Made by a program: the position numbers and the translations under genes. DNA of 64,000 nucleotides. Origin: an uncultured Chlorobiaceae bacterium. GTDB lineage: Bacteria > Bacteroidota > Chlorobiia > Chlorobiales > Chlorobiaceae. The notes below the pieces were generated by a model. That model did not search any database. It was given only the letters and a program-made list of their open reading frames with translations, and was not told the origin of the DNA. Shown piece by piece: positions 2,138 to 11,574 of the stretch (the first letter of the stretch is position 1; the number at the start of each line of letters is the position of its first letter). Where the stretch lies: contig CAJAJL010000100.1 in the NCBI GenBank assembly GCA_903940125.1, forward strand, positions 1 to 64,000. The letters are read 5' to 3'.

Positions 2138-2560
2138 ATGAGAAAAAATTTTATCGCCGGCATGATTGTTTCACTTGCAATGACAGGACTGTTTGGTGGC
2201 GTTTCTTTCGCCTCTGACAATGCTGCAGAAGTAAAAGCTGAAAAGAAAGCAGAGATCAAGGCTGAGGTAAAAGCTGATAAGAAAGCAGAGAAAAAGGCAG
2301 ACAAGAAGGCAGAGATCAAAGCAGATTTGAAATCTGATATCAAAGCTGAAAAAAAGTCTGAAAAGAAGGAAGAGATCAAAGCAGAAGAAAAAGTTGAAAA
2401 GAGAGCTGTAAAAAGAGCTGAGCTGAGGGATGAGCAGAAAGCTGAAAGAAAGGCAGCGAAAAGAGCTCACAGAAAAGCCAGGAAACTAAGAAAAGCAAGG
2501 ATAGTGGAAAAAAAGGCTGATGCTAAAGCAGCTGAAGCTAAAGTCGAAGCTGGCAAGTAA
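2138..2560 (+). CDS. Lys/Ala-rich exported protein
   Basis: The 140-residue protein starts with a signal peptide (MRKNFIAGMIVSLAM, cleavage probably after VSFAS) followed by more than 100 residues made almost only of Lys, Ala, Glu, Asp and Arg, in repeats of the type KAEKKAEIKAEVKAD. It should form a long, highly charged helix or coiled coil in the periplasm or on the cell surface. No enzyme motif is present. Its DNA is purine-rich, which gives long false frames on the other strand. A rho-independent terminator follows at 2605-2638. A similar Lys/Ala-rich exported protein is encoded at 12748-13146. Function unknown. Confidence 0.7.
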   Translation: MRKNFIAGMIVSLAMTGLFGGVSFASDNAAEVKAEKKAEIKAEVKADKKAEKKADKKAEIKADLKSDIKAEKKSEKKEEIKAEEKVEKRAVKRAELRDEQKAERKAAKRAHRKARKLRKARIVEKKADAKAAEAKVEAGK

Positions 2561-3972: not shown

Positions 3973-4857
3973 ATGAACATACTCGAGCCAAATAATACCG
4001 CCATCGGTTTTCGAAATATCGTTAAAAAAGAAATTAACAAAGAGGGATATAAAATTAATGTTGTCGGCTTTCTTGCGTCCGAAGACCCCGCATCCATAAC
4101 CTACTCCGAATACGCACGTAATGGATGCGAAGATGTCGGCATTGTCTTTAATTTGATCACAGTTAACCCGGATTCGATCAAGCGGATATTATTAGAAGCA
4201 AATAGTGATAAAGACATTCATGGAATATTCATCTATTACCCTGTCTGGAACGATTATCGGGATGCCGAAATTCGGAATATGGTCTCTCCGCATAAGGATG
4301 TGGAAGGGCTTACCTCATACTGGATAAGCAAACTTTATGCTAATGATCGTTTTGATGACACAGAACAACGAAACAAGGCGATACTTCCGTGCACCCCGCT
4401 GGCAATTATTAAATTGCTGGAAGAAACGGAAGCCTACATGCAATTTGGACTGCCTTTCAAAGGACAAACTGTCACTATTTTTAATCGTTCAGAAGTTGTT
4501 GGAAAGCCGCTTGCCTATATGCTTTCCAATGATGGTGCAAAAGTTTATTCCTTTGACGTCAATGGCGGTATTGTAGTTGATATTTCGAACACTCAGCAGG
4601 AAGGTATCGCTGTGACTCGCGCCGATGCATTAAAACAATCTGATATTGTCATAACAGGAGTGCCGTCCAGAAACTTCGACAAAATCAGGGCAGATGAATT
4701 GAAACCGGGAGCGATTTGCCTTAATTTTTCTTCAGTGCAGAATTTTGAACTGGATGCAAAGGAAACGGCGAGTCTCTACATTCCCCGAGTTGGTACTATG
4801 ACAGTGGCTATGTGTATACGTAATGCATTACAGCTCTACCGCAATTATCATCAATAA
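3973..4857 (+). CDS. MTD1-like NAD-dependent methylenetetrahydrofolate dehydrogenase (FolD superfamily)
   Basis: The 294-residue protein has the FolD fold: the substrate segment DPASITYSEYA (38-48), ILPCTPLAI (137-145), the dinucleotide segment NRSEVVGKPLA (171-181), VVITGVPS-like IVITGVPS, and a C-terminal VGTMTVAM. In bifunctional FolD the substrate segment is Y-x-x-x-K, where Lys is needed for cyclohydrolase; here that position is Ala48. The NRS in place of GRS/GAS, and the general pattern, resemble as I remember it yeast Mtd1, an NAD-dependent dehydrogenase without cyclohydrolase activity. It would oxidise 5,10-methylene-THF to methenyl-THF in one-carbon metabolism. No folate gene is adjacent. 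Confidence 0.82.
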   Translation: MNILEPNNTAIGFRNIVKKEINKEGYKINVVGFLASEDPASITYSEYARNGCEDVGIVFNLITVNPDSIKRILLEANSDKDIHGIFIYYPVWNDYRDAEIRNMVSPHKDVEGLTSYWISKLYANDRFDDTEQRNKAILPCTPLAIIKLLEETEAYMQFGLPFKGQTVTIFNRSEVVGKPLAYMLSNDGAKVYSFDVNGGIVVDISNTQQEGIAVTRADALKQSDIVITGVPSRNFDKIRADELKPGAICLNFSSVQNFELDAKETASLYIPRVGTMTVAMCIRNALQLYRNYHQ

Positions 4858-7525: not shown

Positions 7526-7702
7526 ATGGCTTCTTACCCTTTCTATGAAAAAATAGCAACTCCACCATTGAAGAAAAAGGCCATGGGGATGAGCTCAACG
7601 TTCATGGAAGCACCACAGAAGACGATTTCAAAACAAGCAGCAGAAATAGATGGTACTTGGGAGTTTTACGGAACCGATGCAGGTTTTACTCGAATTCTAT
7701 GA
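7526..7702 (+). CDS. Small ORF, 58 residues, with strong ribosome binding site
   Basis: A 58-codon frame begins at ATG 7526 and is preceded by TTTTTGAGGTAAGAT, a strong Shine-Dalgarno at good spacing. It begins MASYPFYEKIATPPLKKKAM and ends in an aromatic-rich segment (GTWEFYGTDAGF). It has no signal peptide or membrane helix. It lies on the plus strand between two minus-strand genes, and its last 17 bases overlap the 3' end of the biotin carrier gene. I do not recognise it. The ribosome binding site and lack of any competing gene in 7426-7685 support it; conservation is untested. Confidence 0.5.
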   Translation: MASYPFYEKIATPPLKKKAMGMSSTFMEAPQKTISKQAAEIDGTWEFYGTDAGFTRIL

Positions 7703-8081
7703 GAGCCTGGCCGCTTTTTACTGCCTCTCCCTGTGAAGCCATGATCTTTTTGACGGTTCCATCCGAATGGGCTGTTATATTTGTCTCCATCTTCATGGCT
7801 TCCAGCACGACAAGCAGATCGTCTACCTGAAGCTTTTGTCCAACCTGGACATTAACACGCTGCACAATCCCTGCAATGGGACTACGGCAGACCTTATTGT
7901 CTGGCAGACCGTCTGAAACGGGCTGTATTGCAAGTGGTTGGGGCGAGGGTGTGACAACCTGCTTCGACTGAATGGTAGAGGTCAGTGCCTGGAATGAGTC
8001 CGGCGTCCGAATTTCCTCTCCTTCCAGTACCTCTACGTCAACAATATATTTATTTCCGTCTATGGTCAAGATCAATTGCAC
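7686..8081 (-). CDS. Biotin carboxyl carrier protein (transcarboxylase 1.3S-like)
   Basis: The 131-residue protein has a Pro/Gln-rich linker (about 40-60) and a C-terminal biotinyl domain with EAMKMET, where Lys97 is the biotinylation site. The start is GTG 8081, with AAGGA nine bases upstream. It is the last gene of the minus-strand cluster 5S-like, 12S-like, small subunit, biotin carrier. The carrier would shuttle carboxybiotin between the two carboxyltransferases. No biotin carboxylase gene is in the cluster, which favours transcarboxylation between CoA ester and keto acid over ATP-dependent carboxylation. A shared carrier for an unlinked biotin carboxylase is the alternative. Confidence 0.88.
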   Translation of the reverse strand: MQLILTIDGNKYIVDVEVLEGEEIRTPDSFQALTSTIQSKQVVTPSPQPLAIQPVSDGLPDNKVCRSPIAGIVQRVNVQVGQKLQVDDLLVVLEAMKMETNITAHSDGTVKKIMASQGEAVKSGQALIEFE

Positions 8082-8092
8082 GGTATGATTCC

Positions 8093-8302
8093 TTATTTAG
8101 TGGTGCTGAAAGTATGGGATGACTGTATGGAGACGCGACCCTGTTGTGACCAGGAACTTGGTCCCTGATTACTGATGAAGCGGGCCCTGCGGATCCGGAC
8201 GTTCTTTCCCAGATAGGCCGCGATGGCAGCCGACATGATGGCCAAAAGCTCCTGAGTTATTTTGGGCTCATTGGTTATAGGCTCAGAGATGGGTGTTTCC
8301 AT
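8093..8302 (-). CDS. Small OadG/MmdD-like subunit lacking the membrane helix
   Basis: The 69-residue protein contains ITQELLAIMSAAIAAYLG and a basic RIRRARF segment followed by WSQQGRVSIQSS, which matches the C-terminal part of oxaloacetate decarboxylase gamma / methylmalonyl-CoA decarboxylase delta chains. In sodium pumps this part follows a membrane helix; here that helix is missing. Such short soluble versions accompany acyl-CoA carboxyltransferases and probably help assemble the complex. It lies 10 bases after the 12S-like gene and 11 bases before the biotin carrier, in one operon. Confidence 0.75.
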   Translation of the reverse strand: METPISEPITNEPKITQELLAIMSAAIAAYLGKNVRIRRARFISNQGPSSWSQQGRVSIQSSHTFSTTK

Positions 8303-8312
8303 TGGAATAGAG

Positions 8313-9857
8313 TTATAGTGGAATCAGGCCGTGTTTCTTCTGAGGCCTGAATTCCCGTTTGGAATGGAGAAAATCGAGCGACATGGCCAGATAGCGGCGT
8401 GTCTCAGCCGGCTCGATGATGTCATCCACCTGAAAGTGAGCGGCTGCGGCATAAGGTGTGGCAAAGGTTTCGCGATACTCCTTGACCAGTTCCTGGCGGC
8501 GCACTGCGGGATCATCCGATTTTTTGATCTCGTTACGAAAGATAACGTCTACAGCACCATCGGCGCCCATAACGGCAATTTCGGCTGAAGGCCATGAAAC
8601 TACTCTATCGGCATCCAGGTCTTTGCTGCACATGGCCAGATAGGCTCCACCATAGGCTTTTCGGAGTACAACCGTGATTTTTGGTACGGTGGCGGCAGCG
8701 TAAGCAAAGAGCATCTTGGCACCATGTCGGATGATTCCCCCATACTCCTGTTCGACGCCAGGCAGAAAGCCGGGGACATCGACAAAGGTAATGAGCGGTA
8801 TGTTGAAGGCATTGCAGAATCGGATGAAGCGGGCGGCCTTATCCGAAGCATTGATGTCGAGCACGCCAGCCATCACATTGGGCTGGTTGGCAACAATACC
8901 TACTGCGCGTCCCTGAAGCCGTGCAAAGCCAATAACGATGTTGGGGGCAAATGAGGACTGCACCTCCATTAAATCGGCTTTATCCACGATATGGCCTATG
9001 ACTTCACGGACGTCGTACCGCTGTTTCGGGTCAAGGGGAATAACAGTGTTAAGACGTTTGTCAGGGATGATAATATCGTCCGCCTCCAACTGGGGTGAGT
9101 CCTCAAGATTGTTTGAAGGGAGAAATGACAATAAGCGTTTGCAGATGGCAATGGCATCCAGATCATCTTCAGCAATGAAGTGAACCACACCGGAGTTATT
9201 CATCTGAGCAATTGGCCCCCCCAGCTCTTCGGTGGTAACCACTTCTCCGGTTACTGCCTTGATGACCGAGGGACCGGTAATGAACATCCGTGCCGCACGG
9301 GTCTGGATGATGAAGTCGGTCAGGGCCGGGCTGTATGCAGCACCACCGGCACAGGGGCCGCAGATGATTGAAATTTGCGGCACGACGCCTGAAAGCATGA
9401 CGTTGTTGTAAAAGACTTTACCATAGCCGGAAAGACTGTCGATCCCCTCCTGGATACGGGCACCGCCTGAGTCGTTGATCATGACGAAGGGTGAGCCTGT
9501 CTTGAGCGAAGACTGCATCATCTGTACTATTTTATTACAGTGCGCCTCACCGGCTGAGCCACCGACAACGGTGAAATCCTGGCTGGCAACATGCACAAGT
9601 CTTCCGCTGATACTGCCGGCTCCAGTGACCACGCCATCTGCTGCCAGCTCCTTGTCCGTCATTCCGAAGTTTGTGCAGCGGTGTTTTGCAAAAAGTCCCG
9701 ATTCCTGAAAACTGTCCTGATCGAGGAGTGCGCCGATGCGCTCACGTGCGCTTAGACTGCCTGCTTCGTGTTGGCGATCGATCTTGTCCTGCCCGCCTCC
9801 CGATTGCAATTTTTCCTTTCGCTGGTTCAGATCCTGTACTATCTCTTCAATATTCAT
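8313..9857 (-). CDS. Acyl-CoA carboxyltransferase (methylmalonyl-CoA carboxytransferase 12S / propionyl-CoA carboxylase beta)
   Basis: The 514-residue protein has the full length of the crotonase-fold carboxyltransferase family. Two oxyanion segments are visible: SGGARIQEG and CGPCAGGAAY in the N-terminal domain, and FVDVPGFLPG and RKAYGGAYLAM in the C-terminal domain. The substrate is probably propionyl-CoA/methylmalonyl-CoA, by family resemblance. It transfers CO2 between biotin and the acyl-CoA. Neighbours are the pyruvate/oxaloacetate carboxyltransferase upstream and the small subunit and biotin carrier downstream. Together they make a transcarboxylase set (EC 2.1.3.1 type). The start ATG 9857 fits the family N-terminus. 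Confidence 0.92.
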   Translation of the reverse strand: MNIEEIVQDLNQRKEKLQSGGGQDKIDRQHEAGSLSARERIGALLDQDSFQESGLFAKHRCTNFGMTDKELAADGVVTGAGSISGRLVHVASQDFTVVGGSAGEAHCNKIVQMMQSSLKTGSPFVMINDSGGARIQEGIDSLSGYGKVFYNNVMLSGVVPQISIICGPCAGGAAYSPALTDFIIQTRAARMFITGPSVIKAVTGEVVTTEELGGPIAQMNNSGVVHFIAEDDLDAIAICKRLLSFLPSNNLEDSPQLEADDIIIPDKRLNTVIPLDPKQRYDVREVIGHIVDKADLMEVQSSFAPNIVIGFARLQGRAVGIVANQPNVMAGVLDINASDKAARFIRFCNAFNIPLITFVDVPGFLPGVEQEYGGIIRHGAKMLFAYAAATVPKITVVLRKAYGGAYLAMCSKDLDADRVVSWPSAEIAVMGADGAVDVIFRNEIKKSDDPAVRRQELVKEYRETFATPYAAAAHFQVDDIIEPAETRRYLAMSLDFLHSKREFRPQKKHGLIPL

Positions 9858-9894
9858 GGTGTCCCGACTCTATCTCTGATTATCATATTTATAA

Positions 9895-11394
9895 CTACTG
9901 GTAGGGTGTTACAGTCACCTTGTGCTGCCGGCCGCTCAGGGTCACGGAGTAGGTGATGGGACCGGTGATTGCCCCCTGATGACCTTCAGCAGGTTGCGTT
10001 TCCGATTCACCTGTCGCAGGGTTACGTCCAAGGTTTCGAGGACCTTCGTGTCGTTCGGCAAAAAATTTTGGTGCCACCTGTGGAAACATGGCATAGGTCA
10101 GCACATCTTCAGTTGTACCGTTGCATCCAGTAATGGCCAGAGCTGAAGAACGGAGCTTGTCCCACTCCGGTTTCAGAAGATTTGCAGGACGGCAGTGGAT
10201 CGGTTTTTTGTGGGCATGCTCGTGTGCCATTTTCACGACGTCCGGATTTTTTTCGCCAGGTACGGCACCGTAATAGCCGAGCATGAGATCAGCAAATTCG
10301 CCAGTCAATACCTTGTATCTTCCCATGAGGACATTAAGCACTGCCTGGGTACCGACGATCTGGCTGCTGGGGGTCACAAGGGGAACATATCCTGTATCCT
10401 TTCGGACAAGCGGGATCTCCTCCAGTACCTCTTTCATCCGATCGCCGGCACCCTGCTGCTTCAGCTGATTTTCCATATTGGAAAGCATGCCACCGGGGAT
10501 CTGGCTCTTGAAAATCTCAGTCTCAACGCCGGTAACTTGTGAAAGAAACTCGCTGTAACGTCCCAGCACCGTCATGAAATGTCTCTTTACTCTCTGTACT
10601 TTTTCCATGTTGACCCTGGTGGTGTAGCCTGTGCCTTCCAGCATTTCAATAAAGCTTTCCGTGGGGTTGTGCCCCGGTCCAAGACTCATGGAACTGATTG
10701 CGGTATCCACGCAATCCACTCCGGCCTCAACAGCCTTCATCAGGCTGACCAGCGTAACACCGGTGGTGGCATGAACATGGAGATGCACCCGAAGATCATC
10801 TCCACAGGCCTCTTTAATTCCTTTTACCAGATCATAAGCTGCCTGAGGCTTGATGAGGGCCGCCATATCCTTGATGCAGAGTGAGTCGACCCCCATATCC
10901 TGAAGCCTGCGGGCCTGGTCGACAAAAAGCTGTGTAGTGTGAATGGGACTGACAGTATAACAGATTGTCCCCTGAGCATGTCCTCCGGCTTTCTTGACAG
11001 CACGTACCGAGGTCTCTATATTTCGCAGGTCATTGAGTGCGTCAAAAATGCGGAAGACGTCCATGCCGTTTTCTGCTGACTTGTTGCAGAATCGTTCCAC
11101 CACCTCATCCTGGTAGTGTCGATACCCCAGAAGATTCTGACCGCGCAACAGCATCTGCAATGGGGTTTTTGGCATCAGCCGCTTGAAGGTGCGCAAACGT
11201 TCCCACGGGTCCTCGTTCAGAAAGCGGATGCATGAATCATAGGTAGCGCCACCCCAGCATTCCAGTGACCAATAGCCGGCATCGTCGAGGTCTGCACAGG
11301 CTCCGGTCATATCTTCAATTCCAAGTCTGGTGGCAATCAGACTCTGGTGTGCATCCCGAAGGGCAAGTTCGGTAATATCAATGATTCTGTTTAT
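9895..11394 (-). CDS. Pyruvate/oxaloacetate carboxyltransferase (transcarboxylase 5S-like, PycB)
   Basis: The TIM-barrel carboxyltransferase begins DITELALRDAHQSL and has the catalytic lysine in CIKDMAAL and the metal-binding HLHVHATTG. It ends after the linker (SVTLSGRQHKVTV) and lacks a biotin domain, which is instead encoded by the gene at 7686. It would move CO2 between carboxybiotin and pyruvate, giving oxaloacetate. Start: the only optimally placed codon after the strong AAGGAG at 11402-11407 is ATA at 11394. The nearest in-frame standard start upstream is TTG 11457, without a good ribosome site, giving a 520-residue form with 21 odd extra residues. I prefer ATA. Confidence 0.88.
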   Translation of the reverse strand: MNRIIDITELALRDAHQSLIATRLGIEDMTGACADLDDAGYWSLECWGGATYDSCIRFLNEDPWERLRTFKRLMPKTPLQMLLRGQNLLGYRHYQDEVVERFCNKSAENGMDVFRIFDALNDLRNIETSVRAVKKAGGHAQGTICYTVSPIHTTQLFVDQARRLQDMGVDSLCIKDMAALIKPQAAYDLVKGIKEACGDDLRVHLHVHATTGVTLVSLMKAVEAGVDCVDTAISSMSLGPGHNPTESFIEMLEGTGYTTRVNMEKVQRVKRHFMTVLGRYSEFLSQVTGVETEIFKSQIPGGMLSNMENQLKQQGAGDRMKEVLEEIPLVRKDTGYVPLVTPSSQIVGTQAVLNVLMGRYKVLTGEFADLMLGYYGAVPGEKNPDVVKMAHEHAHKKPIHCRPANLLKPEWDKLRSSALAITGCNGTTEDVLTYAMFPQVAPKFFAERHEGPRNLGRNPATGESETQPAEGHQGAITGPITYSVTLSGRQHKVTVTPYQ

Positions 11395-11407
11395 GGTAAC
11401 TCTCCTT
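11392..11407 (-). promoter_or_regulatory. Strong Shine-Dalgarno followed by apparent AUA start codon
   Basis: On the minus strand AAGGAG (11407-11402) is followed after seven bases by ATA (11394-11392), then codons for NRIIDITELALRD, the expected N-terminus of the carboxyltransferase. No ATG, GTG or TTG is in frame at a usable distance from this site. AUA is a very rare start codon and would lower translation. Confidence 0.55.
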
Positions 11408-11574
11408 GATGATGTTAAATGTATGCAACCATAGACTATCCTGAAAATTTTTCGCAAATTAAATCGGAAAAACCACAGCTTTCTACACCGTTACATCCGG
11501 TTTTTTTAAGGATAATCAGATTATCAAAATTCTGGGAGAATATAATAAATCAGGATTGGAATAAAGTATTTTAT

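Follow-up and report, generated by a model that had tools for sequence, protein, structure and literature searches.

Methylorubrum extorquens divides the two steps of FolD between separate enzymes, the NADP-dependent dehydrogenase MtdA and the cyclohydrolase FchA. Clostridium perfringens reportedly combines FolD with FchA and Fhs, going by the title of Aluri 2016. The MTD1 enzyme of Saccharomyces cerevisiae (structures 1edz and 1ee9) is said to be a monofunctional dehydrogenase in the titles of Barlowe and Appling 1990 and Wagner 2005. Taken singly, the fold family, MTD1, and FchA are already known; the literature searched describes no bacterial MTD1 family and no pairing of such enzymes with FchA that replaces FolD, and KEGG-type annotation may note part of this arrangement.

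According to excerpts from two papers, the catalytic set of the human enzyme comprises Tyr52, Lys56, Gln100, and Asp125, of which Lys56 and Gln100 work jointly, and Lys56 may pass a proton in the cyclohydrolase step (PMC3368264, PMC6443876). The excerpted part of a computational study of MTHFD2 sees no noticeable catalytic role of the lysine in the dehydrogenase step and neither proves nor excludes one in the cyclohydrolase step (PMC9173628). A 2024 survey describes MTD1, in the passage concerned, as a fungal duplicate, the likeliest orthologue of FolD/MTHFD2, that accompanies ADE3/MIS1 (PMC11064299). The same passage gives MTD1 only a cyclohydrolase function in vitro and then describes the dehydrogenase reaction; the cyclohydrolase wording looks like a slip, since the titles cited there say dehydrogenase.

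The window, a DNA stretch of 64,000 nucleotides from an uncultured Chlorobiaceae bacterium, contains an open reading frame with the start codon ATG and the stop codon TAA that encodes a protein of 294 residues (Table 1). Both Pfam THF_DHG_CYH domains score above their cut-offs in this protein, PF00763 with 60 bits (cut-off, 32.8) and PF02882 with 61.7 bits (cut-off, 27). The NCBIfam cut-offs for FolD are not reached; of the 25 models listed out of 30 matched, none comes close to its threshold, and the top score is 86.6 bits where 423 would be required. A phmmer search of the PDB returns the yeast enzyme (1edz/1ee9) at 4e-61 over residues 14 to 292 and, as the second-ranking entry, the FolD structure 6ape at 6e-16; the resemblance to MTD1 noted in the sequence-only reading is therefore real. 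The identity with yeast MTD1 is ∼40% over 271 columns. The gene is under purifying selection as judged from its codons, with dN/dS values of 0.13 to 0.16 against five of nine compared relatives, the other four showing saturated dS. Foreign contamination of the contig is ruled out by copies with 84 to 89% identity in other Chlorobiaceae genomes.

Table 1. Positions in the window of the MTD1-like gene and of the parts of it discussed in the text
Feature	Position	Strand	Basis
MTD1-like 5,10-methylene-THF dehydrogenase gene (putative function)	3973..4857	+	ORF, PF00763 and PF02882, yeast MTD1 nearest in PDB, AlphaFold model
Y44-S-E-Y-A48 at the FolD YxxxK position, catalytic Lys replaced by Ala	4102..4116	+	Residue alignment of 80 relatives
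Tyr88 where FolD has its second catalytic residue (human Gln100)	4234..4236	+	Residue alignment
KDVEG, with the pterin-binding Asp109 (human Asp125) retained and a FolD Asp replaced by Glu111	4294..4308	+	Residue alignment
NRSE cofactor-loop motif in common with yeast MTD1 (FolD: GRS)	4483..4494	+	Residue alignment
Longer segment after the cofactor loop, with a strand ending in Asp195 and an extra strand before TGVPS (likely NAD-selecting)	4540..4653	+	Alignment, model

The active site of the window protein retains Tyr44 and Asp109 of the human set and carries Ala48 and Tyr88, so that neither of the conserved catalytic residues Lys and Gln of FolD is present. The claim of a missing FolD lysine is confirmed and extends to the relatives: at this position, none of 80 related loci has lysine, 70 have threonine, and 10 have alanine, and yeast MTD1 has threonine. 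This variation across the relatives, together with the dN/dS values, rules out a sequencing slip as the origin of Ala48. Glutamine is likewise found in 0 of the 80 at the second position, where all relatives and yeast MTD1 have tyrosine; the FolD side of the comparison consists of 7 usable rows of 17, and all 7 contain glutamine there. Asp109 and Glu111 occur in 80 of 80 relatives, the glutamate also in yeast MTD1.

In the cofactor loop, Asn171, Arg172, and Ser173 are invariant among the 80 relatives and Glu174 is found in 74 of them, and yeast MTD1 has all four. The segment after the loop measures 36 to 58 residues in 55 members of the family and 24 residues, counted by eye, in human MTHFD1; it has 48 residues in yeast MTD1 and 36 or 38 in 51 of the 55 bacterial members. 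Asp195, present in all 80 relatives and in yeast MTD1, closes the strand that usually selects NAD. An AlphaFold model of the window protein, built from 32 bacterial sequences and with a mean pLDDT of 94.5, contains strands at residues 190 to 195 and 198 to 202. This pair and the long segment appear to correspond to the inserted strands in the nucleotide domain of the 1edz structure. The model matches 1edz best among structures (Z score, 38.6; root mean square deviation, 1.8 Å; 292 aligned residues), followed by human MTHFD2 with a Z score of 32.4. On the basis of one conserved aspartate (Asp195), NAD is the most likely cofactor.

Yeast MTD1 is the closest described system for the window protein, with the loss of Lys and Gln, the NRSE motif, Asp195, the long segment, and the top structural match in common. 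The bifunctional FolD, the DC domain of MTHFD1, and MTHFD2 agree with the window protein in fold, in domain order, and in the folate-site residues Tyr and Asp, but their identity with it is 21 to 28% by structural alignment, the Lys and Gln are lost in the window protein, and FolD and MTHFD1 are set apart from it by a long, fully supported branch. In a tree that includes 11 FolD sequences, Campylobacter FolD, and human MTHFD1 (MTHFD2 and the FolD rows L109, L111, and L112 being left out), a branch of length 2.89, supported at 100/100, divides yeast MTD1 and the bacterial MTD1-like proteins from all of these. The phylogeny proposed along with the sequence-only reading thus places the window protein with MTD1 and outside FolD. 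A grouping of yeast MTD1 with human MTHFD1 is rejected (AU test, p = 1.9e-52). Yeast MTD1 is drawn as the sister of all sampled bacterial members, a placement that is not firm at 87/90; its grouping with either of two single bacterial lineages is not rejected (AU p values of 0.23 and 0.45). A quick tree of 74 rows reproduces both this split and the placement of yeast MTD1 (97, starred). Both trees contain long branches and represent eukaryotic MTD1 by one fungal sequence. By this phylogeny, fungal MTD1 has a bacterial sister family.

A pattern scan across species genomes of bacteria and archaea finds 89 relatives, the best 80 of which were analyzed; as the best-scoring relatives from one scan, they form a sample biased toward the window protein. 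They comprise 26 loci from Chlorobiaceae/Chlorobiales and 54 others, with hosts that include Paludibacterium, FCPU426, Achromatium, Desulfuromonadales, Bacteriovorax, Vibrio, many further gammaproteobacteria, Sorangium, and two actinomycetes. The family is consequently not mainly eukaryotic, contrary to the view of MTD1 as an enzyme of eukaryotes from which the sequence-only reading started, and is found in several bacterial phyla. An MTD1-like profile (E value up to 1e-40) matches 29 of 394 genomes in the phylum of the window; since all 29 are Chlorobiaceae, a gain of the gene in this family by transfer is suggested. Among 194 evenly drawn genomes from the order of another host, G075, 185 have a PF02882 match of FolD strength (E value up to 6e-40), G075 itself has one of only 2.5e-15, two genomes have weaker matches, and six have none; this count covers the strength of PF02882 per genome and leaves out MTD1-like copies beside FolD. 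A protein search of a plasmid collection yields 278 records, all below 60% identity; the best 20 of the 278 include no MTD1-like protein, have identities of 25 to 29%, and are of the FolD type where annotated.

Many of the relatives show a second gene beside the first. In 47 of the 80 loci, the stop codon of the MTD1-like gene is overlapped or followed, at −57 to +10 bp, by the start of an FchA-like gene in the same orientation. Locus L103 adds a partner recognized by Pfam, which brings the loci with an overlapping or directly following gene for an FchA-type cyclohydrolase to 48 of 80. Reading-frame starts are the first possible ones and the overlaps are upper limits; in three loci the sequence stops within 600 bp, so that further FchA genes may be missed. 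The partner is a stand-alone FTCD_C protein (PF04961 above the cut-off in seven of seven tested), and one such protein matches the methenyl-THF cyclohydrolase 7vg4 in the PDB at 4e-42 and FTCD at 3e-25. The FchA model is the sole NCBIfam match of five of five partners tested, but its equivalog cut-off of 275 bits is unreached in all five (95 to 192 bits), which makes the partner FchA-like and not a certified FchA. Clustering of the reading frames around the 80 loci, with 20 proteins scanned, reveals no catabolic one-carbon operon; the scanned neighbors include SIS, NUDIX, transglutaminase, abhydrolase, PRA isomerase, fumarase, sulfotransferase, and other proteins.

FolD tends to be missing where the partner gene is present. 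Among 86 Chlorobiaceae genomes, 15 contain the MTD1-like gene and FchA, adjacent in 15 of 15 and with canonical FolD in 0 of 15. Another 13, including the window genome, contain the MTD1-like gene and FolD without FchA, and in 55 canonical FolD is the only one of the three genes. The FolD-less group includes the culturable Chlorobaculum thiosulfatiphilum DSM 249 (L043), and four of its genomes consist of one contig each with a listed completeness of 99%. Where Chlorobiaceae lack FolD, nothing but the MTD1-like genes scores above the Pfam cut-off of the dehydrogenase family. The two genomes without a PF02882 match are only 66 and 81% complete, and one contains an apparent N-terminal fragment of FolD. 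A metagenome-assembled genome (MAG) with a listed completeness of 99%, G148 (L046/L123), has the MTD1-like gene and no match to FolD, FchA, or Fhs, and barring an assembly gap, the pairing of MTD1-like protein and FchA does not explain it. Since FolD is absent from all 15 pair-bearing Chlorobiaceae and retained in 13 of the 14 MTD1-like genomes without FchA, the MTD1-like protein and FchA together appear to replace FolD. Fhs has no match in 85 of the 86 genomes, and the sole match is a fragment of 111 residues, which leaves the oxidation of methylene-THF as the only route to formyl-THF seen in Chlorobiaceae.

Across the family as a whole, 50 genomes divide into 26 with FchA and without FolD, 22 with FolD and without FchA, 1 with both, and 1 with neither; 24 of the 50 are Chlorobiaceae that overlap the set of 86, and 28 further loci stand outside this count. 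The genomes compared are mostly MAGs. FchA lies on a different contig from the MTD1-like gene in G068, and G086 has FolD plus an FTCD_C domain in an 819-residue frame elsewhere. On the tree, FchA and FolD each change eight times. Six independent pairs on firm branches give four to five that agree, none contrary, and the rest without a difference (median p, 0.125). The pattern is striking and clustered on the tree, and its statistical independence is limited. One MAG, G008, contains two MTD1-like copies (C43 and C63; L007 and L044), one of them overlapped by an intact FchA gene, and on a third contig, C86 (L122), broken FTCD_C pieces with stop codons; since this MAG is listed with 7% contamination, two strains are possible.

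The window genome belongs to the group that keeps FolD. A complete canonical copy with the motif YVRNK, the second folD that the sequence-only reading proposed to look for, lies elsewhere in the genome (G000:C124), and no match to FTCD_C/FchA is found there. The separation of dehydrogenase and cyclohydrolase that had been put forward for this gene is accordingly supported by the many relatives in which FchA adjoins and FolD is gone, and is not exclusive in the window genome. The gene is preceded by an SRAP gene in the same orientation and followed by a Tim44-like gene in the opposite one, and Pfam identifies no folate genes among the neighbors. Eight window neighbors compared with the reading frames of the 80 loci have matches only in L024, L025, L026, L028, and L029, and in L026 the Tim44-like gene is likewise directly downstream of the MTD1-like gene. 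A scan for promoters and terminators around the gene gives sites about equal to shuffled sequences or fewer. Farther away, positions 2138-2560 (+) hold a reading frame of 140 residues with, by eye, a signal-like start and then a low-complexity stretch made up of Lys, Ala, and Glu. Positions 7686-11457 (−) encode a biotin carrier and a carboxyltransferase by Pfam and a third protein that resembles, by eye, a pyruvate/oxaloacetate carboxylase subunit; L024 and L025 likewise have the biotin carrier and carboxyltransferase close to their MTD1-like genes.

The window protein is quite probably a dehydrogenase-only bacterial MTD1, likely NAD dependent, of a family in which the pair with FchA replaces FolD in relatives and which stands beside FolD in the window lineage. 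It would oxidize 5,10-methylene-THF to 5,10-methenyl-THF. The cyclohydrolase step would have been lost with Lys and Gln, the two FolD residues tied to it, since both are gone; we infer this loss strongly and do not take it as fact, because the MTHFD2 study, in its excerpted part, left the role of the lysine unsettled (PMC9173628). In many relatives, the next and usually overlapping fchA gene would supply the cyclohydrolase, and the pair would supplant FolD. In the window lineage, the MTD1-like protein would probably add an NAD-linked dehydrogenase, with the methenyl product hydrolyzed by the retained FolD. Catalytic activity, the preference for NAD, and this hand-over are what we infer from the residues, the gene pairing, and the FolD/FchA pattern described above.

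A fast-evolving FolD that keeps both steps, with another residue in the role of the lysine, would have the same fold and both Pfam domains, and the MTHFD2 computation, in the part excerpted, with no lysine role in the dehydrogenase step and an unsettled one in the cyclohydrolase step, leaves room for it (PMC9173628). Such an enzyme is distinctly unlikely here, as Lys and Gln are missing in all 80 relatives and in yeast MTD1, which is described as monofunctional, and the separate cyclohydrolase gene adjoining in 48 of 80 would be needless. A non-folate relict or regulatory paralogue acting on another substrate might be expected where the gene could be dispensable, as in the window lineage with its complete FolD and no FchA, or among the Chlorobiaceae at large, 55 of 86 of which have FolD without an MTD1-like gene. 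It is nonetheless very improbable: Tyr44 and Asp109 are retained, dN/dS is 0.13 to 0.16, and the MTD1-like gene is the only family match above the Pfam cut-off in FolD-less Chlorobiaceae.

A dehydrogenase-only enzyme dependent on NADP, like MtdA of methylotrophs, would have a different redox meaning. FchA partners the NADP-dependent MtdA in Methylorubrum, and FolD shares the Arg172 of the NRS motif, so that the window protein might contact the phosphate. This reading is unlikely in view of Asp195, which closes the second strand in all 80 relatives and in the NAD-dependent yeast MTD1, a position at which the FolDs aligned have CHS or similar residues. The dehydrogenase-only MTD1 preferred here resembles the M. 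extorquens system in using two enzymes for the two FolD steps, with the same cyclohydrolase family, and differs in that the dehydrogenase belongs to the MTD1 family. C. perfringens also joins an FchA-type cyclohydrolase and a dehydrogenase of the FolD fold in one bacterium, but it keeps FolD beside FchA and Fhs, whereas FchA occurs here without FolD and, in Chlorobiaceae, without Fhs. Yeast MTD1 has a multifunctional C1-THF synthase at its side, and FolD takes the corresponding place for the window protein; unlike the yeast enzyme, the family described here is bacterial, is often linked to fchA, and appears to replace FolD.

A broader scenario can be offered tentatively, and it is rather doubtful. 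A mobile MTD1-fchA operon may have displaced FolD in several unrelated bacterial lineages, so that formyl-THF formation would yield NADH in place of NADPH, and the fungal MTD1 may have been acquired from this family and not have arisen from a eukaryotic FolD. The window lineage would be intermediate or reverted, with fchA lost and FolD kept.

FolD is regarded as a near-universal housekeeping enzyme and drug target. The bacterial sister family given to fungal MTD1 differs from the fungal duplicate described in the passage of the 2024 survey (PMC11064299). If the replacement of FolD is true, genome annotation and metabolic models for these bacteria may misassign the enzyme, its redox cofactor, and possibly the sensitivity to inhibitors. 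The consequences of NADH versus NADPH would be testable in the green sulfur bacteria, since these include close relatives with either arrangement.
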